DNA from: Olavius algarvensis spirochete endosymbiont
Lineage (GTDB): Bacteria > Spirochaetota > Spirochaetia > DSM-2461
DNA length: 64,000 bases
Reading direction: 5' to 3'
NCBI GenBank assembly: GCA_900608495.1
Contig: UWYT01000113.1
Span: forward strand, 1 to 64,000
Below the pieces are notes generated by a model. The model was given only the letters and a program-made list of their open reading frames with translations. It was not told the DNA's origin and searched no databases. Shown here piece after piece: positions 1 to 20,061 of the stretch (position 1 is its first letter; the number at the start of each line of letters is the position of its first letter). The position numbers were made by a program, and so were the translations under genes.

Positions 1-218
1 GGAGAAAATACCACCTTAATTCCCCGCTCTGGCCCAAGTTCGCAATCAATGGCGACAATGTGGATGGTTATGAATTGCCGCTAGGGGAAAATCAAACTAT
101 GAGTATGTCCGCCAGTAAGATCTTGTTCAGCACTGATGAACAAGCATACAGAGAGGTGTTATTGCAGTACCTGTCCGCGGAAGAAGAAGATCAAGTTGAG
201 GAAAAAATCGATGAATGA
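1..218 (+). CDS. C-terminal end of an unrecognised gene upstream of hsdR (partial)
   Basis: An open frame enters from the left edge and runs without a stop to a TGA at 216-218, giving about 71 residues. The tail is acidic (a run of Glu and Asp before ...EKIDE). It overlaps the hsdR start by 8 bases (ATGAATGA), so the two genes are almost certainly one operon and translationally coupled. From position it should be another member of the type I restriction-modification operon or an accessory gene in it. I do not recognise the family, and the segment is too short to assign a function. Confidence 0.5.
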
Positions 219-3200
219 AGAAGAACTCGAAAACCGCTGTCTGGACTGGTTCCGCAAAGGCGGCTGGGATGTGCTGTACGGACCTGACATTGCACCGGAC
301 CTGCCTGACGGCAAGGCAGGTGGCACAGACCTTCAGCGTGATGATTATGCCCAGGTGATGCTAAAGCACGATCTGGAAGTGGCGTTTACCCGTATCAACC
401 GGCACCTGCCGCATGAGTGCTTCGATCAGGTGGTCTCCAAGCTCTCGCAGACAGAAAGCCTGGATCTGGTTACCAACAACCGGGCCTTTCATCGCCTGCT
501 GCTAGAAGGCGTGCCAGTCGAATACAAGCAGGATGATGAGGTACACAACGACCATGCTTTCCTGGTCGATTTTGATCAGTCAACCAATAACCGCTTTGTC
601 GCCATCAATCAGTTCACCATCAGAGGCACCAAGCAACCGCGCCGCCCTGATGTGATCTGTTTTATCAACGGTTTGCCCTTTGCGGTGCTGGAGCTGAAAA
701 GCCCCAGTGACGAGAACGCCAACATCGAGGATGCCTTCAATCAATTGCAAACCTATAAGGATGAGATCAGCGACCTGTTTATCTTCAATGAGGCGTTGGT
801 GGTCAGTGATGGCTGTACCGCCCGTGTCGGTTCGCTCACCGCCAGCCTGGAGCGCTTCATGCCCTGGCGCACAATCGAGCGTGAGGACGACAAGCCGCTG
901 CTGGAGTGGCAACTGGAAACACTGGTGCGCGGCTTCTTTGACCCGAAACTGTTTCTGGATTACATCCGCTATTTTGTGCTGTTTGAAACCGACCTGTCTG
1001 CCGGACAGGCAGGCGGTGGGATTATCAAGAAAATCGCCGGTTATCATCAGTTCCATGCGGTGCGCGAGGCGGTAAAGGCAACTGTGATAGCGGCGCAAGA
1101 GATTGAAGGGGTTGCCGAAAAACGGGCGACCTATGGCGATGGGGTGGTGCCCGGCAGTAAAAAGGCCGGTGTGGTGTGGCATACCCAGGGCTCGGGCAAG
1201 AGCCTCTCCATGTGCTGCTATGCCGGGAAGCTGTTACAGCAACCGACGATGAACAACCCAACCTTGATCGTGGTGACGGATCGCAATGATCTGGACGGAC
1301 AGTTGTTTGCCACCTTCAGCAATGCCGTGGAGTTATTGAAACAGACGCCGGTACAGGCCAACGACCGGGACGAGCTGCGAGAACTACTGGCTGAGCGTGA
1401 ATCGGGCGGCATCATCTTTACAACGGTACAGAAGTTTGCCTTAGTTAAAGATGAAAATGGCGATGAGGAGAGCAGCCACCCGATACTCAATGACCGCCAC
1501 AATATCGTGGTGATCTCCGATGAGGCTCACCGCAGCCAGTATGGCCTGAAGGCGGTGCTGACTGCTGAAGGCCAATATAAGTTTGGCTATGCCAAGCACA
1601 TGCGCGATGCGCTGCCGTTTGCCTCTTTTATCGGTTTCACCGGCACCCCCATATCGCAGGAGGATAAAGATACCCGGGCGGTCTTCGGCGATTATGTCTC
1701 CATCTACGACATTCAGGATGCCGTGGACGATGGTGCGACCGTACCCATTTACTATGAGTCCCGCCTGGCCAAGCTGGAGCTGAACAACAAGGAGATCGAG
1801 GCGCTCTCCGATCAAGTCGATGAGGTGGTCGAGGATGAAGAAGACGTTGGGCAGCGAGAAAAAACCAAGGGTGAATGGAGCCGACTGGAAAAGCTTGTGG
1901 GTGCGACACCCCGTTTGCAGCAGGTGGCTGCCGATCTAATCGACCATTTTGAAGCACGTACCGCCACCATGGATGGCAAGGCGATGATAGTCGGTATGAG
2001 CCGGGACATCTGCGCCCAGCTCTACAATGAGATTGTCGCCTTGCGCCCCGACTGGCACGACCCCGACCCGGAAAAAGGTGCGATCAAAATCGTGATGACC
2101 GGGTCCGCTTCCGATAAGCCATTGCTGCAACCCCACATCTACAACAAAAAAACCAAGAAGCGACTGGAGAAGCGTTTTAAGGATAAAAACGACCCGCTAA
2201 AGCTGGTGATCGTACGTGATATGTGGCTGACCGGTTTTGATGCCCCCTGTTGCCATACCATGTATGTCGATAAGCCGATGAAGGGACACAACCTGATGCA
2301 GGCCATTGCCCGGGTGAATCGGGTATTCAAGGACAAGCAAGGCGGGTTGGTGGTTGACTACATCGGCATCGCCAATGAGCTGAAACAGGCGCTCAAGACC
2401 TACACCGACTCCAAGGGCAAAGGTGAACCGACCCTTCGTGCCGAAAAGGCGCTGGCGATTCTTTTGGAAAAGCTGGATGCCATTCGGGGGATGTTTGCCA
2501 AGACACCGCAATCGGATGGTCTGGATATTTCCGGATTCGAGACCGACGCACACAAGCTGCTGGTGCCTGCCGCCAACTATGTGCTGGGACTGGAAGATGG
2601 CAAGAAGCGTTTTCTCGATCTGGTACTGGCCACCAGCAAGGCCTATTCACTATGCAGCACGCTGGACGAGGCCAAAGGCCTGCGCAAGGAGATCGCCTTT
2701 TACTCTGCGGTGAAGGCGGCTATCAGCAAGTTCACCTCGGTTGATAAGAAGCGCACACAGGAAGAGAAGAATTCCGTGCTCAAGCAGATATTGGATAACG
2801 CCGTCATCGCCGAAGGCGTGGCGGATGTGTTCAGCCTGTGCGGTTTGGATAAACCCGATATCGGCCTGCTCTCCGATGAGTTTCTGAAAGATGTCCGGCA
2901 GATGCCGCACCAGAACCTGGCCGTTGAGCTGCTGGAAAAACTGCTCAAGGACGACATCAAGGCCAAGACCCGCAACAACGTGGTTCAGGAGAAGAAGTAC
3001 GCTGAGCGGCTGCAGGAGACCCTGCGCAAGTATAACAACCGAGCCATTGAGACGGCACAGGTTATCGAGGAGCTTATCCAGATGGCCAAGGAGTTTCAGG
3101 CGGAGATGGCGCGTAAGGCCGAGTTGGGACTCAACCCCGATGAGATTGCCTTTTATGATGCCCTGGCCAATAATGAAAGCGCGGTTCGTGAGCTTGGCGA

Positions 3201-3414
3201 TGAGACCCTGAAGAAAATCGCTACTGAGATTACCTGCAAGCTACGCAAATCAACCACTGTCGACTGGCAAGTACGCGATAGCGTTCGGGCCAAGCTGAAG
3301 ATTCTGGTGCGGGGTACATTGTGGCGTTACGAATACCCGCCCGACAAAACGACAGAAGCCGTTGAGCTTGTGCTCAAGCAGGCTGAGACACTCTCGAATT
3401 CCTGGAGTAAATAA
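211..3414 (+). CDS. hsdR: Type I restriction enzyme R subunit (HsdR)
   Basis: This is the motor and nuclease subunit of a type I restriction-modification complex; it translocates unmethylated DNA and cuts it. The 1067-aa product has an N-terminal PD-(D/E)XK-type nuclease (Asp147, then ELK with Glu161 and Lys163). Superfamily 2 helicase motifs follow: Walker A TQGSGKS near 330, DEAH near 437 and FTGTP near 476. Length is normal for the family. I chose ATG 211 over an upstream in-frame ATG at 136 because it overlaps the upstream stop and begins with a typical MNEEELE terminus. The gene is GC-rich compared with the origin region. Two short in-frame inserts (near residues 31-37 and 264-270) coincide with GC-rich hairpins at 300-320 and 993-1009. 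HsdM and HsdS are not in the window and probably lie to the left. Confidence 0.93.
300..323. repeat. REP-like GC-rich palindrome inserted in frame in hsdR (copy 1)
   Basis: CCTGCC (300-305) can pair with GGCAGG (315-320). It sits in frame in hsdR and encodes LPDGKAGG, at a place where family members normally run straight on from GPDIAPD. It closely resembles the element at 993-1016. Confidence 0.5.
993..1016. repeat. REP-like GC-rich palindrome inserted in frame in hsdR (copy 2)
   Basis: CCTGTC (993-998), a 5-base loop and GACAGG (1004-1009) form a hairpin, followed by CAGGCGG. It encodes LSAGQAGG just before the conserved [12 protein letters not shown] segment of HsdR. By eye it matches copy 1 at most positions. 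Confidence 0.5.
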
Positions 3415-3431
3415 CCTTATTGATTAACTGA

Positions 3432-4176
3432 ATCAACCGTGATGGTTGTCGTATAAAAAAGCGGACAATTACGATTAATGAATCAAAACAGAGCAGCCTG
3501 GAACAGTTCCTGATAGATCAGGCCGCGGAAAAGAATATTGCTCTCGATAGCGATAAGACGAAGATTGTTGATTCTGAAATCAATCAGGTAGTTAACAAGT
3601 CAAAAAAGTTTACCGACTGGCATAAAAAGAGCAGTACACAGGCTGAATTGAAAGTCCGACTCCGCCCTGTGCTTGCAAAGCATGGTCTCCCGGTTCTTGA
3701 TTCAGTGTTTGATGAAATCTCAAGGCGTGCTGGCAGTTCATCCACACCGAAGTCTTACTGGTTTGTTGGCGCATCCTACGGCAAAGGTAGCGAGGATCAG
3801 ACCGAGCGTTTCATAACCGAAGGCGTCTGGCAAAACGGCTACCAGGACAAATACCTTGATGTCGTTCGCTCCATGCAGCCTGGCGACAAGATTGCCATCA
3901 AATCGTCCTATACCCTAAAAGCGTAACCTGCCTTTCGACAGCAAGGGTCAGACCGTCTCCATGATGGATATCAAAGCGATTGGCGTGGTGACGAAAAACC
4001 ATGGTGATGGCCGGTTTGTCGACGTGGATTGGGAGCCGCGTTTAGATCCAGTGAAAGAATGGTATTTCTACACGAACCGAAGCACGGTATGGCGTGTGCT
4101 GCCCGGGGAATGGATGACTGATGCCCTTATCGACTTTACCTTCAGCGCTGGAAAGCCCCGGCTACAAGGGGCCAGA
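3432..4176 (+). pseudogene. Frameshifted, truncated remnant: HsdR-like tail joined to McrB-like N-terminal domain
   Basis: A frame without a start codon runs from about 3432 to a TAA at 3924-3926. Its first part (TDWHKKSSTQAELKVRLRP near 3618-3675) resembles the C-terminal tail of a second HsdR-type protein. The part after about 3755 (YWFVGASYGKG, then QPGDKIAIKSSYT) resembles the N-terminal domain of McrB-type AAA restriction proteins. The reading continues in another frame from about 3918 (KRNLPFDSKGQTVS, then VKEWYFYTNRSTVWRV) to about 4176, where it is cut off next to a tRNA terminator. A lesion at the CCCTAAAAGCG stretch (3912-3922) is therefore likely. No AAA domain remains, so it cannot work as McrB. 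The family names come from recalled motifs and are moderately sure; that the gene is broken is clearer. Confidence 0.6.
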
Positions 4177-4184
4177 TACGAAAA

Positions 4185-4211
4185 AGCCGGTTTCAGAGAA
4201 CCGGTTTTTTT
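4185..4211. terminator. Bidirectional rho-independent terminator beside tRNA-Ser(GCT)
   Basis: CCGGTT (4187-4192), loop TCAGAG, AACCGG (4199-4204) are flanked by AAAAAG on the left and a T-run (4205-4211) on the right. On the minus strand it lies just after the tRNA 3' end at 4218 and has its own T-run, so it probably ends the tRNA transcript. It could also stop read-through from the restriction genes. Confidence 0.75.
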
Positions 4212-4215
4212 GTTT

Positions 4216-5002
<787 letters not shown>

Positions 5003-5072
5003 AGTCCCGGCGACATATTCCCCAGGCGGACGCAATGTCCTTGCCAAGCAGTCCCGTTCGCAACAGGCGGGA

Positions 5073-6740
5073 TCAGTCATGCAGCGCCCTCCAGTTCTCG
5101 ATAACCCGACGAATATCAGTTCTGTTAAATTCCATAGTCATCAGCGCCGATGCCTTGTATCGGGTCAGGCTGTTATCATATTTCGGTGGAAGCCAGCGCA
5201 GTTGCTTCTCGGTGGCCGGTTGATACAGCCAGTCCCTTTGTTTGTGGGCAGTGCTTTCTGTCTCAAACCGGTTGATCCAGTCATCTGCAGCGGCAAAACA
5301 CACATTGCGTTCTCCAGCAGTCAAAAGTTTAACCAGATGCGAGGGTTTTTTGCGCCCGCCAACCGCATACCATTCACCGTCGAGATAAAAGACACCGCCC
5401 CACGCCTCGAAGCCGGTTGCAATGAAGTAACGGTCATTGTCGTACAGATCGCACCAGGAAAAATTGGAGCGCTTGAGAATATCGATTTCCGTCATGCGAA
5501 AATCAGCTGTCTGAGTGGCAGCAGCCTCGGGCTGTCCTTCCCAGACATAGCCACATAGCGGACATTCCTTGCTGGCAAGCGGGACATCAGCACCGCATTC
5601 AGGGCAATCTTTGTAAGGCGCATCACCCTCTACAAACCGGTCGTCCAGCTGAACTTCCTGCTCAAGAAAACCATGCATCAATATCGAAGTGCCAAAATCC
5701 AGAACAATGCAGTTTTTCTTGATGACGCCGGAAAACTCAGCCGGATCAACAGTCCGCAAACCCCTGCCAATCATCTGAATCATGGTTGATTTGTAAGAGC
5801 TGGGGCGCAACAGTACGATGCAGGAAGTTGGCGGGTGGTCCCAGCCTTCCGTCAGTACCGCGACATTGACAACAACCTGCAGATTGTTTTTGCCGTAAGC
5901 CTTCAAAGTGTCGGAGCGCTCTGTTTCGCTCATATCGCCCCAAATCATGCCTGTGGTAATCCCGGCGCTTTGATAGCTCGTCATCACATCGCGGGCATGA
6001 TTAACCGTGGAACAGAACACAACGGTTTGGCGATCTCCGGCTTTTTCCTTCCAGTGCTGAACAACGGCATCATTGATGGGGCGTGTGTTCATGATGTTAG
6101 CGACCGCACCCATATCATAATCAAGGGCAGTCTTGCGGACTCTCCTCAGCTCTTCCTGAACGCCCACATCCATCACAAAAGTGCGCGGTGGAACAAGATG
6201 GCCCGAGGCAATCAGTTCCTTAACCATGATTTGGTCTGAAACATTGGAAAAGATGTTGCGAAGACCCTTCTTGTCACCGCGATGGGGCGTGGCCGTCATG
6301 CCCAGAAGCTTCATGTCCGGATTGATGCGCCGGGCGTGTTCAATCACCCGCATATAGCTGTCAGCCCGGGCGTGATGAGCTTCATCGATAACCAGTGCAT
6401 CCAAAGGGGGCAACGAGATTAAGTTGTTTTCGCGGGAGAGAGTTTGCACCATCGCAAACGCCACCTGGCCATCCCAATTTTTCTCATTGGCGTTAAAAAT
6501 GCTGGTAGATAGCGAGGGGCTTACGAGCTTGAATTTACCTTCGTTTTGAAAGGTTAGTTCATCGCGGTGAGCAAGAACGCAGGCCCGTTCAATATCGCGC
6601 TTGAACATCCGATCCAGCACAGCCGAGAGCATGATCGTTTTGCCCGCACCGGCCGGAGCGACAGCAAGCGTATTGCCGTGAGTGTAGAGCGCATCAACAG
6701 TTTTGGAGACGAGCTCCTTTTGTCTTGGTCTGAGTAACAT
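5073..6740 (-). CDS. DEAD/DEAH-box superfamily 2 helicase with zinc ribbon (phage/plasmid type)
   Basis: The 555-aa product is an ATP-dependent nucleic-acid helicase of the COG1061 (SSL2-like) type. Motifs in order are Walker A APAGAGKT near residue 30, DEAHHAR near 117, motif III MTATPHRGD near 150, and the second RecA lobe with TEGWDHPP and QMIGRGLR near 310-335. A four-Cys zinc ribbon (CPECG...CPLCG) follows near 385-410. A C-terminal domain of about 140 residues follows that I cannot name. A good ribosome site (AAGGAGG) lies 4-5 bases before the ATG. Similar proteins are common on phages and plasmids. Together with the GC-rich base use and the flanking duplicated tRNA copies, this suggests it arrived as part of a mobile segment. 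Its substrate is unknown. Confidence 0.85.
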   Translation of the reverse strand: MLLRPRQKELVSKTVDALYTHGNTLAVAPAGAGKTIMLSAVLDRMFKRDIERACVLAHRDELTFQNEGKFKLVSPSLSTSIFNANEKNWDGQVAFAMVQTLSRENNLISLPPLDALVIDEAHHARADSYMRVIEHARRINPDMKLLGMTATPHRGDKKGLRNIFSNVSDQIMVKELIASGHLVPPRTFVMDVGVQEELRRVRKTALDYDMGAVANIMNTRPINDAVVQHWKEKAGDRQTVVFCSTVNHARDVMTSYQSAGITTGMIWGDMSETERSDTLKAYGKNNLQVVVNVAVLTEGWDHPPTSCIVLLRPSSYKSTMIQMIGRGLRTVDPAEFSGVIKKNCIVLDFGTSILMHGFLEQEVQLDDRFVEGDAPYKDCPECGADVPLASKECPLCGYVWEGQPEAAATQTADFRMTEIDILKRSNFSWCDLYDNDRYFIATGFEAWGGVFYLDGEWYAVGGRKKPSHLVKLLTAGERNVCFAAADDWINRFETESTAHKQRDWLYQPATEKQLRWLPPKYDNSLTRYKASALMTMEFNRTDIRRVIENWRALHD

Positions 6741-6817
6741 GCCGCCTCCTTATAATTGCGCCCATGACGGCAGGTTGCTGGCAGAACTCGCAGGCGCACT
6801 TTGGTTGCCACCCCTCT

Positions 6818-7090
6818 TTAGAGGGGCTGCGAGCAGACGTCGATACTGCACCCATTAATGAGGCATATCTTATCCGGTGTGATAACCAGTTTGATGCTTT
6901 TCTTATCGTCACCGCTTTGGTTTTTATCGACATCGATACGGGAGGCAAACTCAAATACCATCCAGATCGCCAGGGCCATACATGCGGCGGGTATTCTGGG
7001 CAGCGGAGAGAGTTGTTCCTGTTGGATACGCCACGTGCAAAGTTCAAAATTCCCTTGATTGAAGCGCCACCACTGTTCTTCCGGACTCAA
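6818..7090 (-). CDS. Small hypothetical protein upstream of the helicase
   Basis: A 90-aa frame on the helicase strand; its stop lies about 78 bases before the helicase start. The beginning (SPEEQWWRFNQG) and the end (ITPDKICLINGCSIDV) look protein-like. The frame stays open upstream of the annotated start (reading ...QELEFDWAIL), so the true start may be missing or the gene may be partly decayed. I do not recognise it. It could be an accessory gene of the same mobile segment or chance. Confidence 0.3.
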   Translation of the reverse strand: MSPEEQWWRFNQGNFELCTWRIQQEQLSPLPRIPAACMALAIWMVFEFASRIDVDKNQSGDDKKSIKLVITPDKICLINGCSIDVCSQPL

Positions 7091-7214
7091 AATAGCCCAA
7101 TCAAACTCCAGCTCTTGCGCGCAGGCATATTTTCCTTACCAAACAACAAATTCGCAGTTTGAATAGACCGATCCCGTGGCGTTGTTCCGTGCAGTCCAGC
7201 CTTGAGAGGCATCG

Positions 7215-7300
7215 TCATGCGGTCATACGAATCCTGATTGCCATTCCTTTCGGGGTAGCGTCAAAAACGCTTTCAATCATCTGCACTTGAGAGATTCGAA
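7215..7300 (-). pseudogene. Short C-terminal tail of an unrecognised decayed gene
   Basis: A frame reading MIESVFDATPKGMAIRIR and ending at TGA (7215-7217) abuts the broken 3' end of the tRNA-Ser copy. It looks like the end of a real protein, but nothing upstream supports a whole gene. It may mark the junction where the mobile segment joined. Confidence 0.25.
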
Positions 7301-7371
7301 CCCTCGGTGTGCAGTCAACCCACAGAACGCCTTGGCAGGGAGCCCGATTCAACCACTCTCGCACCTTTTCC
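7285..7371 (-). pseudogene. tRNA-Ser pseudogene (second copy)
   Basis: This is a degenerate copy of tRNA-Ser(GCT). The D-arm (GCGAGAGTGGTTGAATCGGG) and T-loop (GGTTCGAATC) are kept. The 5' acceptor reads GGAAAAG, the anticodon loop has changed from CTGCTAA to CTGCCAA with a mismatched stem, and the 3' acceptor strand is replaced by unrelated bases. It cannot fold into a complete cloverleaf. Confidence 0.8.
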
Positions 7372-8324
7372 AAATTATCGAAACGGGCGACTAATCAACA
7401 TCGTTGTGTAATCCTCCCTAGATTGTCCTTTACATCGCTTCGCGTTGCAACACCCCGCATAGAAGATGCAAACCTCGGCGTCACCTGTTGCACCTCACCT
7501 CATCTTGAAGCCAAAAAAGCCCGCCTTTAACTCGAAGTCGATACATCCCTATCACAAGCCATGCCCCGAGGAGCGAACACCTCCCAGGCAGGCCGGCTTT
7601 GATACTCGCGTATAGCCGCATATGAATCTGTAAAAATATCATGGTAAACACCATTTCGGCGGCATCCAGCCAACTGCTTATGTACCTTATTCTTGATTCA
7701 GCAGTCGGCAGGTGATTCAAGATTCACAGCCTCAAATTTATGACTGACCTCCGGACAACTGCCGAGGAAAGAAGGTGTCTCCCTGCTGCTTTACTTGTAA
7801 TTCCAAATCGAAATTGATACCGTGTAAGGAGTACGAAAAAGCTGAGGTGATTGACGCATGGGATTTAGTCTGTTGGGGGTGACTGTTGGTTTTTTAAAGC
7901 AAAATCCGGAACAAAAATTTACTGCTCGTGAGATTGCAGCCTGGATATTCGAAACCTACCCTGATGAGTGCCGACAAAAACAAAATCGTTCCAAAGCAAA
8001 AGTAACTCCGCTTGATACTGACGCGGCCCTGCTTCAGCAGATTGCTGCTGAAATAGGTTCACGGCGCCCCCGGTTGCAAGCAATGAATCCGAAAATCAAA
8101 ACTACCGAAGCCCGGCCTCGGAAGTTCTACTATACCGATTCAAGTGACAGCGACGAAATTGAGCGTACAGAGAGCAGCGCGACGGCATCCGCGGCTGATC
8201 CGAATGCCGCAATCATAAAAGAACACGATCTTTACTCCATCCTGAGCGAGTTTTTGTGGTCTGAACTTGCAATCTATAGCAGGAGGATTGACGAGAAACG
8301 CTCCCGTAAGTCTCGCAGTGCCGG
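7291..8324. repeat. Duplicated tRNA-Ser/hrgA unit, copy B
   Basis: Matches 4229-5002. In this copy hrgA is intact and the tRNA is broken, the reverse of copy A. The stretch 7372-7857 between pseudo-tRNA and hrgA has no convincing gene of its own. GAGGTG about 10 bases before ATG 7858 is the likely hrgA ribosome site. Confidence 0.85.
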
Positions 8325-9213: not shown

Positions 9214-9298
9214 CGGAGGGAGTGGGATTCGAACCCACGGCAGGTTGCCCTGCACTGGTTTTCAAGACCAGCCCCATAAACCACTCGGTCATCCCTCC
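9214..9298 (-). tRNA. tRNA-Ser(TGA)
   Basis: On the minus strand the acceptor GGAGGGA (9292-9298) pairs with TCCCTCC. The anticodon stem/loop CTGGT-CTTGAAA-ACCAG gives anticodon TGA. A long class II variable arm and a GGTTCGAATCC T-arm are present. The 3' end reads G then CTT, so CCA is not encoded and must be added. Confidence 0.95.
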
Positions 9299-17138: not shown

Positions 17139-17224
17139 CTATCATCAAATTTTGTTGTTTTTTGAATATTGCCGCGGAGCCTGCGTATGTTTTCTTATTT
17201 GCACATTTAGCTTTGAAAAATTGT

Positions 17225-18583
17225 ATGAACGGAAACGAGTATAGTATTTTCTGGACTGAAACCATCCGTCAGCTAAGGGAAGATGGAAACATTTCGGAAC
17301 AGGAACATGATATGTGGTTTAAAAAAATGTACTTCATCAAGGGAGAAAGCAATACTCTAACTCTAAGTGTCCCCTCCAACTTCTTTCGCGATCAAATCAA
17401 ACAAAGGTATCTACTCTTATTGCAATCCCGTGTAAGCAACATAACAGGATCTCACATAATCATTAATTTCGAAGTTCGGAAAAACACAAAAACCTCTGAT
17501 AATCCAGAAAAAATCACAACTGAAAACCTCAATCAATCACATGAAAGAAAGCCCCATCATCAACTTCGACAAGATTACGATTTCAACAACTTCGTAATAG
17601 GAGGCAATAATTTTTTCGCAGCCAGCGCAGCACAGGCAATTGGGCTCAATCCAGGCGGGGCATACAATCCCTTTTTGATATACGGTGGCGTTGGTTTAGG
17701 CAAAACTCATCTAATGCAGTCTATCGGCAACTCCATTCACTATTCGCTAAAAGATAAAAAAGTCGAATACATCACTGCTGAAACCTTCATTAACGAATTT
17801 ATTCATTCGATAAAAAGCGAAACACAAAGCAAGTTCAAAAACAGATATCGAAAAGTGGACGTTTTACTCATAGACGATATTCACGATCTCCAAAACAAGA
17901 AGGAAACTCAAGAAGAACTGTTTCACACATTCAATGCCTTATACGATGCAAAAAAACAACTAGTATTTACCTGCGATAGACCCCCCTCCGAACTACGCAA
18001 TTTTGCAGACAGATTGAAGAGCCGTTTTGAACGCGGCCTCAACGTAGACATTCAACCCCCCAATTTTGAGACTCGCCACGCCATTCTAAGAAAAAAACTT
18101 GAAACATTTTCCACAAATATTCCAGATGAAATTCTGGAACTCATCGCAAAAAATGTTACAACTAACATAAGAGATTTAGAGGCATCACTTACGAAGATGA
18201 TTGCATATGCGGAACTTGTTGGAAAAAAAATTACGACAGAAATCGCTCAGCAACAACTGAAAGGTACCTTCACAAGCGCTATACCCTCGAATATAACTAT
18301 TGATAGAGTACAACGAACAATCTCTGAATATTTCAATATCACCTTCGCAGATCTTAAGGGGAAAAAACGCACCAAGAGAGTAACTTTCCCCCGACAAATT
18401 GCCATGTACATAATTAGAGAAATTACAGACTATTCAACCACCGAAATAGGCCTCGAATTTGGTGGACGAGACCACACAACAGTTATGCATGCCTGCCAAA
18501 GGATAGAAGATCTGATGAAGGGAAACCCCACCCTGGAACCAATTGTTAATGAAATAAAAAGAACAATAAAAGAAGATAGCTAA
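17225..18583 (+). CDS. dnaA: Chromosomal replication initiator DnaA
   Basis: A 452-aa AAA+ initiator that binds DnaA boxes and opens oriC. Domain I covers roughly residues 1-85, then a Gln/Asn/Lys-rich linker. Walker A GGVGLGKTH lies near 154-162 and Walker B LLIDDIHDL near 215. The domain IV DNA-binding signature GGRDHTTVMHAC lies near 415. ATG 17225 is preferred to an upstream TTG at 17162 because the product then starts like other DnaAs. No clear ribosome site is seen. The bases are AT-rich compared with the accessory region. oriC follows directly downstream. Confidence 0.97.
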   Translation: MNGNEYSIFWTETIRQLREDGNISEQEHDMWFKKMYFIKGESNTLTLSVPSNFFRDQIKQRYLLLLQSRVSNITGSHIIINFEVRKNTKTSDNPEKITTENLNQSHERKPHHQLRQDYDFNNFVIGGNNFFAASAAQAIGLNPGGAYNPFLIYGGVGLGKTHLMQSIGNSIHYSLKDKKVEYITAETFINEFIHSIKSETQSKFKNRYRKVDVLLIDDIHDLQNKKETQEELFHTFNALYDAKKQLVFTCDRPPSELRNFADRLKSRFERGLNVDIQPPNFETRHAILRKKLETFSTNIPDEILELIAKNVTTNIRDLEASLTKMIAYAELVGKKITTEIAQQQLKGTFTSAIPSNITIDRVQRTISEYFNITFADLKGKKRTKRVTFPRQIAMYIIREITDYSTTEIGLEFGGRDHTTVMHACQRIEDLMKGNPTLEPIVNEIKRTIKEDS

Positions 18584-18960
18584 ATCTCGCCGATAAGCTT
18601 CAAACTCCTGGTCGCCAACGGAGAAAGGCAAATCTTGAGTAAAAAAGGTAAGCAAAAAAACGATGGGGAACTGTGGATAAATGGCCTTTGCCTGTGGAAT
18701 GAATGTTTATTAAACCCTCCGATTATAAGAATGTTGATAAAAAGCCCAATATCAATTTATTTACCAACAATAAAACCACAAAACAAAATGTTGTTTTGAA
18801 AAGAGAAATTCAGTTTATCCACTTTTCCACAAGCCCTACTACTACTGCTACTATATAGAATTTAATAAATAGGATTTATAGACATTGTGAATAAACAGTA
18901 AGGAAGCCCACTTGAATCCGATATTTGTTACCCTTATTATCAAGTGTTTGGAGGATGATA
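18584..18960. other. oriC: Replication origin (oriC) between dnaA and dnaN
   Basis: An AT-rich 377-base gap with the parts of a basal unwinding system. There is a perfect DnaA box TGTGGATAA at 18672-18680 and a weak box TGTGGAATG at 18693. Two abutting boxes, TTATCCACT (18815-18823) and TTTTCCACA (18823-18831), are followed by the GC-rich AGCC. Six DnaA-trios come next, CTACTACTACTGCTACTA (18836-18853), then AT-rich TATAGAATTTAATAAATAGG where melting should start. The order box-box-GC-trios-AT matches the B. subtilis element. The dnaN ribosome site GGAGG (18950-18954) closes the region. Confidence 0.92.
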
Positions 18961-20061
18961 ATGATATTCACTTGCGATAAGAATGCTGTTTTGAAAGAAA
19001 TCGTAGTAGCAAACGAAATAATTTCCTCACACAATGTCCTTTCTATTCTTTCCAGTGTTTTGCTAGATGCCCATGATGACACTCTAACAATTAAAGCAAC
19101 TGACCTTAGAGTGAGTTTTGAAACACAGATACCAATTTCTTTGGAATCTCCAGGAAAAGCTACTCTCTTCTGTGGGAAATTCCTTGCAATACTAAGAAAC
19201 TTCCCAGATGGGGATGTTTTTTTCATAGAGGAGGAAGGCAAAATAACAATAGAGAATAGAGGGAATATCAAATTCCAAATGCATAGTATATCTGCGGATA
19301 ATTTTCCGGAGATACCCAATTCGGAAGAAGCTCAGTTTTTCTCTTTGTCTCAAAAAAAATTCGTTTACATGATACGACAGACTATCTTCGCTATAAGCGG
19401 AGATGAAACCCGTTATTTTATGAACGGAGTTTATATGGAGTTGAAAGGGGACAGGATTGTAATGGTTGCAACGGATGGTAGACGCTTGAGTCACGTTTAT
19501 GCTGTCCAGGAGGGAGAAACACCTGATTTTCCGGGGATAATCATACCACCAAAAGTTTTAAATTTATTTGTTAAGCTGGCCTCCGGAGAAGGTGATATCA
19601 ATTTGGCTGTGGCAGATAAAATACTTTTCGCCCATTTTGATAAACAGAAGCTTACAAGCGCCCTGGTAGATGGGCAGTTTCCAAATTATTCCCGTGTAAT
19701 ACCTGAAGATCAGAATTCCAGATTCACAATCAATAGAATGGAATTAAGTGACGCTCTTCGTCGTGTATCATTGCTCTCGGATCAGAAAACTAAGAGAATT
19801 CTACTATCGCTTTCGCGAGGTGGCATTGTATTGAAATCTGATGAAAGCGGAATTGGTGAGGCCGAGGAGAAAATAGACTGCCACTATGACGGGCCTAGAA
19901 TAGAGTTCGCTCTGAATCATTCATATCTTTCCGATCCGCTCAAAGTTATTGAGCAGGAAAGCATCCTCGTAAAATTCACCGATTCGCACAAAGCCATTAC
20001 AATTGTTTCCCTTGAGGAATCAACATTTTTTCACATAGTTATGCCGATGCAAATGGAATGA
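18961..20061 (+). CDS. dnaN: DNA polymerase III beta subunit (sliding clamp)
   Basis: The 366-aa ring-forming processivity clamp for the replicative polymerase. The three-domain clamp pattern is visible, including ATDGRRLSHV near 175-185, DGQFPNYSRVIP near 240 and a C-terminal VMPMQME close to the usual MPMR/MPVR ending. ATG 18961 sits 6 bases after GGAGG. An ATG at 18955 is too close to that site to be used. It is the first gene of the dnaN-recF-dciA run; recF starts 3 bases after its stop. Confidence 0.96.
   Translation: MIFTCDKNAVLKEIVVANEIISSHNVLSILSSVLLDAHDDTLTIKATDLRVSFETQIPISLESPGKATLFCGKFLAILRNFPDGDVFFIEEEGKITIENRGNIKFQMHSISADNFPEIPNSEEAQFFSLSQKKFVYMIRQTIFAISGDETRYFMNGVYMELKGDRIVMVATDGRRLSHVYAVQEGETPDFPGIIIPPKVLNLFVKLASGEGDINLAVADKILFAHFDKQKLTSALVDGQFPNYSRVIPEDQNSRFTINRMELSDALRRVSLLSDQKTKRILLSLSRGGIVLKSDESGIGEAEEKIDCHYDGPRIEFALNHSYLSDPLKVIEQESILVKFTDSHKAITIVSLEESTFFHIVMPMQME

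Follow-up and report, generated by a model that had tools for sequence, protein, structure and literature searches.

Does the short gap between dnaA and dnaN in an uncultured spirochaete hold the place where its chromosome is opened for replication, and can the strand and position of that opening be predicted from the letters alone? We addressed this in a stretch of 64,000 nucleotides (the window), which is contig C196 of a source assembly that totals 2.12 Mb, is split into 340 contigs and is 88.7% complete. We conclude, with a probability of about 0.94, that the region is the predicted origin core of the chromosome and works as a basal unwinding system (BUS). The gap contains the whole module on the plus strand, as read directly from the sequence. 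By NCBIfam naming, recF, rnpA and yidC lie 3' of dnaN, and gyrB and gyrA precede dnaA on the opposite strand. The two genes and the core elements between them are as follows (the class, here and below, is that of the source genome, read as Spirochaetia):

17162-18583, plus strand: dnaA, the initiator gene, an open reading frame from TTG (NCBIfam TIGR00362, 517.4 bits, cut-off 343.9)
18815-18823, plus strand: proximal DnaA box TTATCCACT, counterpart of B. subtilis box 6, one mismatch to TTATCCACA (60-genera profile)
18823-18831, plus strand: proximal DnaA box TTTTCCACA, counterpart of B. subtilis box 7, one mismatch to TTATCCACA (60-genera profile)
18832-18835, plus strand: spacer AGCC (direct reading; per-position counts of the class)
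18836-18853, plus strand: six DnaA-trios, CTA CTA CTA CTG CTA CTA (direct reading; profile)
18854-18885, no strand assigned: AT-rich tract (nearest-neighbour scan)
18961-20061, plus strand: dnaN, start ATG at 18961 or in-frame ATG at 18955 (NCBIfam TIGR00663, 322.7 bits, cut-off 137.65)

A first-pass annotation had described two abutting DnaA boxes at 18815-18831. The coordinates hold, but the boxes do not abut: base 18823 is common to both 9-mers, which gives a 1-base overlap and a pitch of 8 bp. The spacer AGCC and the six trios read as that annotation had them. Trio 4 is CTG and the other five are CTA; the predicted bound strand is the complement, 3'-GAT-5'. The AT-rich tract follows from 18854, in the order known from B. 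subtilis and likewise as proposed, and the weakest of the 63,951 50-mers in the window by nearest-neighbour stability (18852-18901) starts at the end of the trios. Across 100 flanks of the class, the mean AT fraction at +20 to +29 from trio 1 is 0.93. In a BUS one expects a DnaA box (at most two mismatches to TTATCCACA) whose distance to the trios is 0-16 bp, an unbroken run of three or more trios with adenine in the centre on the bound strand, and an intrinsically unstable AT-rich tract past them; the window has two such boxes (one mismatch each, spacers 4 and 12), six trios and a least stable 50-mer that begins at 18852.

A BUS should also lie at a chromosome origin. Global GC skew was assessed in the relatives G011 and G010, the source assembly being split into 340 contigs. 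G011 belongs to the same family and is assembled as one contig. Its sign change lies between the intervals sampled at 3.09 and 3.13 Mb, with the module at approximately 3.12 Mb; the samples in the 1.5-3.09 Mb arc are negative apart from the one at 2.7 Mb, and those in the arc that runs from 3.13 Mb around the chromosome to 1.3 Mb are positive apart from the one at 0.9 Mb. The sign change in G010 falls between 1.89 and 1.92 Mb, with dnaA at 1.914 Mb. Here skew is below zero in the samples at 1.65, 1.80 and 1.89 Mb and above zero in those from 1.92 Mb on apart from 2.65 Mb, with some noise: the first sample to the right of dnaA is just 0.003, and on the left those at 0.85, 1.05 and 1.45 Mb are positive. 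The skew switch that had been suggested as a check is thus found at the module in both sampled relatives, with noise. Within the 64-kb window negative skew gives way to positive at 18-20 kb, a place at which gene orientation switches as well, and its lowest cumulative value is at 17-20 kb; other sign changes occur near 5 kb and from 30 kb on.

Distal DnaA boxes on one side and a possible convergent box on the other flank the core:

18672-18680, minus strand: distal leftward DnaA box, a perfect TTATCCACA, 164 bp before trio 1 (leftward boxes are common in this zone across the class)
18732-18740, minus strand: distal leftward DnaA box TTATCAACA, one mismatch, 104 bp before trio 1 (sequence reading)
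18886-18894, minus strand: possible convergent DnaA box TTATTCACA, one mismatch, past the AT-rich tract at +50 from trio 1 (sequence reading)

Among 100 class flanks (L008 is omitted from the tallies and L032 missing from the distal-box counts), 122 of the 125 boxes with at most one mismatch at -230 to -85 from trio 1 point leftward, and 81 flanks have one or more leftward boxes in the range from -230 to -30. The commonest distal position is -95. The 52 distinct box positions beyond -108, from 33 genera, fit a period of 11.0 bp with R 0.75, the highest value among 1000 sets in which each genus was given a random offset being 0.50; taken at this period, they sit roughly half a turn off the cluster at -95. 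When all distal boxes are pooled, R is 0.09 at 11 bp (p 0.30) and the best of the periods tried is 10.25 bp (R 0.59); 9, 12 and 13 bp are among the periods that exceed the null as well, owing to the large number of boxes at -95. The periodicity of the far boxes could stem from looping, from tandem boxes 10-11 bp apart or from shared descent. The looping criterion of B. subtilis incC is a distance of at least 44 bp from box 6 and helical phase; the window's distal boxes stand at -104 and -164, and the boxes of the class fit a period of 11 bp when the far ones are taken alone but 10.25 bp when all are pooled.

On the other side of the core, all six flanks of the window's own genus carry an inverted box at +50 to +52 with 0-2 mismatches (at most one mismatch in 3/6). 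In genus g4 an inverted box is found at +59 in 4/5 flanks examined, in three of them with at most one mismatch. Sites with two mismatches also occur at +60 to +62 in 3/4 flanks of g2 and at +50 in 1/3 flanks of g5, so the weaker cases of a convergent box prove little. DnaA at the putative convergent box would possibly face the melting region from the opposite side; control of dnaN is the alternative. A weak box-like site, TTATAGACA, with two mismatches, lies at 18876-18884, past the trios and ahead of the possible convergent box.

DnaA boxes can regulate genes, and the block directly precedes dnaN, with a possible oppositely oriented box downstream of it. It might therefore be mainly a DnaA-responsive regulator of dnaN transcription, with replication starting elsewhere. 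However, the trios end just ~30 bp before dnaN in several families, we are aware of no promoter that is controlled through a trio register, and the skew of 2/2 sampled relatives changes sign at dnaA-dnaN. We therefore regard a mainly regulatory block as improbable, while noting that an origin role and a role in dnaN regulation could coexist.

Conservation of an origin core was assessed in relatives of increasing distance. The best 10 of the 80 dnaA matches kept from named genomes, ranked by E-value (L033-L042), are labelled Spirochaetia, Spirochaetaceae, Treponema or Sphaerochaetaceae, although records very near the source genome may be missing from the matches listed; together with the BUS-type anatomy in the dnaA-dnaN gap, this agrees with the original proposal of a likely spirochaete oriC. 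The first-pass annotation had named a lack of conservation of the trios in close relatives as grounds for rejection. The module, trios included, is kept in all six same-genus genomes with a dnaA match (3/9 same-genus genomes gave no such match). In a first batch of 30 dnaA loci, out of 53 genomes with a match, the trio run is present in 30/30 flanks, weakest in L018 and L024; L008 ends short of dnaN. A second batch comprised 100 flanks hand-chosen for variety, and thus non-random, among the matches listed (a dnaA match was obtained in 174/198 genomes). With a profile blind to the middle base of each of trios 2-6, 72 of these reach a score of at least 10, the maximum among 99 mononucleotide-shuffled flanks being 8.4. 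The accepted flanks number 101 (29 + 72) and span 61 genera and 35 families, all with the same register and the same box distance, with exchange of CTA and TTA.

The other 28 of the 100 second-batch flanks score below the threshold of 10 on the masked profile, which fixes the register, so that flanks in another register would land among them. Four lie at contig ends and are short (L148, L169, L172 and L228), and several carry weaker modules (e.g., L177, L217 and L234). No module is recognizable by the profile in up to 871 bases after dnaA in L174, L181, L221, L226, L235, L240 and L242, where the origin may have moved or changed, or the gene order may differ. Recurrent flips of dnaA among relatives were considered and rejected, as all supposed cases were minus-strand matches stored on the contig strand. 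In L004, L005 and L007, of the same genus as the window, the proximal boxes are TTATCCCC/TTTTCCCC or similar in place of TTATCCAC; L004 retains a TTATCCACA box elsewhere within the same gap. In L234 and L238 (family f20, genomes of ~1 Mb), trio-like runs follow stretches that are far from the usual DnaA box, and these lineages may use an altered one.

Outside the class, 45 of 47 chosen Bacillota loci have a rightward box with at most one mismatch at -21, as in the window, and a second box at -13 that is mostly weaker. The idea that the 8-bp box pitch is specific to spirochaetes was rejected on this count; as pitch and spacing are the same in Bacillota, the architecture is not a spirochaete trait. 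The melting start point had been called unusually clear, a description that does not stand, since many relatives and Bacillota look alike. By this comparison of sequences it is well supported that the module represents a further member of the known BUS family, ordinary in kind and widespread among relatives.

The initiator protein keeps some of the trio-contacting residues of B. subtilis DnaA and differs at others. The window DnaA matches the B. subtilis DnaA of entry 8btg with E 4.5e-118 (phmmer), and 172/343 residues of domains III-IV are identical. Identical counterparts are found for B. subtilis Glu183, Asn187, Ile190, Ile193, Lys222, Glu228 and Arg264; the single-stranded DNA-binding isoleucine (Ile190) is Ile214 and the arginine finger (Arg264) is Arg288 in the window DnaA. 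Three counterparts of trio-contacting residues differ, namely Asn196 (Glu), Arg202 (Lys) and Glu223 (Lys). The lysine in the place of Arg202, Lys226, is invariant in 15 aligned DnaA proteins; in B. subtilis, the change of Arg202 to alanine is reported to cause a severe growth defect (PMC10721633).

The single mismatch in each proximal box and the CTG at trio 4 could be taken as signs that this species has a BUS in decay and initiates replication by another route. This is highly unlikely: the module scores very high on a profile made from other genera, dnaA has an open reading frame with 80% identity to its G003 counterpart, and CTG retains both captured bases, 3'-GA-5', as these are described for B. 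subtilis (PMC10721633). The profile covers 44 positions, with one sequence per genus from 60 genera and the window's genus excluded. It scores 47.7 at the module and 1.0 at the next-best site in the 64-kb window; the highest score reached in 100 dinucleotide shuffles of the whole stretch is 16.1. In the 2.12-Mb assembly the trio 18-mer occurs once exactly and once with two mismatches, the latter on contig C157, and a control pattern has no match. The CTA run is a short near-perfect repeat within an AT-rich gap, but that it should be a trinucleotide microsatellite or chance match without a replication role is scarcely credible given the constant register and box distance in the 101 flanks despite CTA/TTA exchange, the single exact 18-mer match and a profile score far above the shuffles.

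For the predicted origin core we infer a course of events from work on B. subtilis, where strand separation by DnaA is described as requiring boxes 6/7 and the trios, DnaA as being loaded in cis from the boxes onto the trios, seven DnaA subunits as being engaged by six trios, and the action of distal boxes as showing helical phasing (PMC6669920, PMC10721633). The two overlapping rightward boxes would be bound by DnaA as double-stranded DNA. An oligomer of ATP-DnaA would then extend from the boxes on the bottom strand, from 18836 toward dnaN, capturing two bases of each 3'-GAT-5' trio. The duplex would open via the trios into the AT-rich tract, where helicases would be loaded. The leftward distal boxes at -104 and -164 may increase the local DnaA concentration by looping, as proposed for incC. 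This amounts to a prediction of unwinding, exact as to strand and base, for an uncultured lineage.

The comparison of many genera amounts to a natural mutagenesis of the trios and marks trio 4 as a position of interest. A non-T centre on the top strand is found at trios 1-6 in 2, 3, 12, 20, 6 and 5 of 91 distinct combinations of genus and array in Spirochaetia, and in 2, 2, 6, 15, 3 and 3 of 35 Spirochaetia families, trios 2-6 alone being comparable here as the centre of trio 1 is scored by the profile. The array counts ignore kinship, and the family counts are the better guide. In addition, 29 first-batch rows were picked by a T-centred trio run and not by the masked profile, which biases against deviants; the Bacillota scan likewise favours T centres. 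The corresponding Bacillota numbers are 1, 1, 0, 11, 4 and 18 in 60 distinct arrays, 0, 0, 0, 11, 3 and 12 in the 54 arrays without six restored rows, and 0, 0, 0, 5, 2 and 4 in 20 distinct arrays picked out through their boxes and first trio only. Among trios 2-5, trio 4 thus has the weakest centre in both groups, and in Spirochaetia its centre is the least conserved of trios 2-6; in Bacillota it is the weakest of trios 1-5, with trio 6, the array end, weaker still.

The Bacillota rows were assembled as follows. From L045-L112, 53 of the 68 rows were first used. Nine of the 15 omitted are not labelled Bacillota (L092 and L102 are labelled spirochaetes), and the other six, Bacillota rows that are one trio out of register (L077, L078, L091, L101, L103 and L110), were restored in the 60-array count. 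The exact box pattern matched 32 of 200 genomes at 33 places. Dropped from these were five places without trios (G546, G501, G468, G467 and one of two G436 sites) and those identical to a kept string (G496, G615, G608, G587 and G625); further rows from genomes that already gave Bacillota scan loci were not added.

The deviations at trios 1 and 2 in Bacillota both come from one locus, L103, which deviates at trios 1, 2, 5 and 6. After dnaA, this Bacillota MAG has a trio-like array that opens with CGA CGA, which places cytosine mid-trio on the bound strand in the first two trios. Trios 1-3 are reported to be essential in B. subtilis (PMC10721633), and the Bacillota variation largely agrees with this. 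A more far-reaching possibility is that the array is read unevenly in both Spirochaetota and Bacillota, the box-adjacent trios and trio 5 being read and trio 4 largely skipped. We put this forward as a doubtful suggestion, with its odds lowered because of L103 and the hand-made choice of rows. If true, the DnaA oligomer would withstand the failure of one subunit, always at the same place, to capture its base, a feature that the published search rule, which stops at the first non-adenine centre, would miss.

The deviant trio centres were also examined for a preference for cytosine, after the amine rule of PMC10721633. At the genus level, the deviant top-strand centres of Spirochaetia are C in 16 cases, A in 14 and G in 9, so that G, which pairs with a bound-strand cytosine, is not preferred. 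Bacillota have G in 18/35 cells, with A in 11 and C in 6, which is suggestive only; in the pattern-only subset (A 5, G 4, C 2), G accounts for 4/11 and there is no lean to bound-strand cytosine.

Compared with known systems, the window most resembles the BUS of B. subtilis incC, as described in PMC6669920 and PMC10721633: in both, the origin sits next to dnaA and ahead of dnaN and has two boxes in the same orientation, six trios, an unstable AT-rich tract and distal boxes upstream. Unlike the B. subtilis system, the class has distal boxes that are nearly all leftward (122/125), and the window's genus has a possible convergent box past the melting region. Unlike Bacillota, in which trio 3 is deviant in 0/60 arrays, Spirochaetia deviate there in 12/91. 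A survey of bacterial origins predicted a BUS in 1755 of 2070 (PMC8287927), and the window agrees with its box, spacer and trio rules as these are worded; that wording is silent on overlap of two boxes, and those of the window share one base. The same rule calls for an unbroken run of trios with adenine in every middle position, so that arrays interrupted at trio 4 would end early. Helicobacter pylori oriC, as described in PMC8235120, also combines a DnaA box and a single-stranded DnaA-trio in one origin; that origin has two parts, and the comparison with the window covers one of them.

The locus supports the BUS as a shared opening module in the spirochaete phylum. Among the papers searched, we found none that joins the DnaA-trio with spirochaetes, Borrelia or Treponema, but the supplementary tables of PMC8287927 may well include spirochaetes. 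Elsewhere in the window, GC content is ~0.50-0.55 at 1-8000 and 0.37-0.49 in the remainder, and Rfam identifies two tRNA genes:

4221-4308, minus strand: tRNA gene (Rfam)
9214-9298, minus strand: tRNA gene (Rfam)
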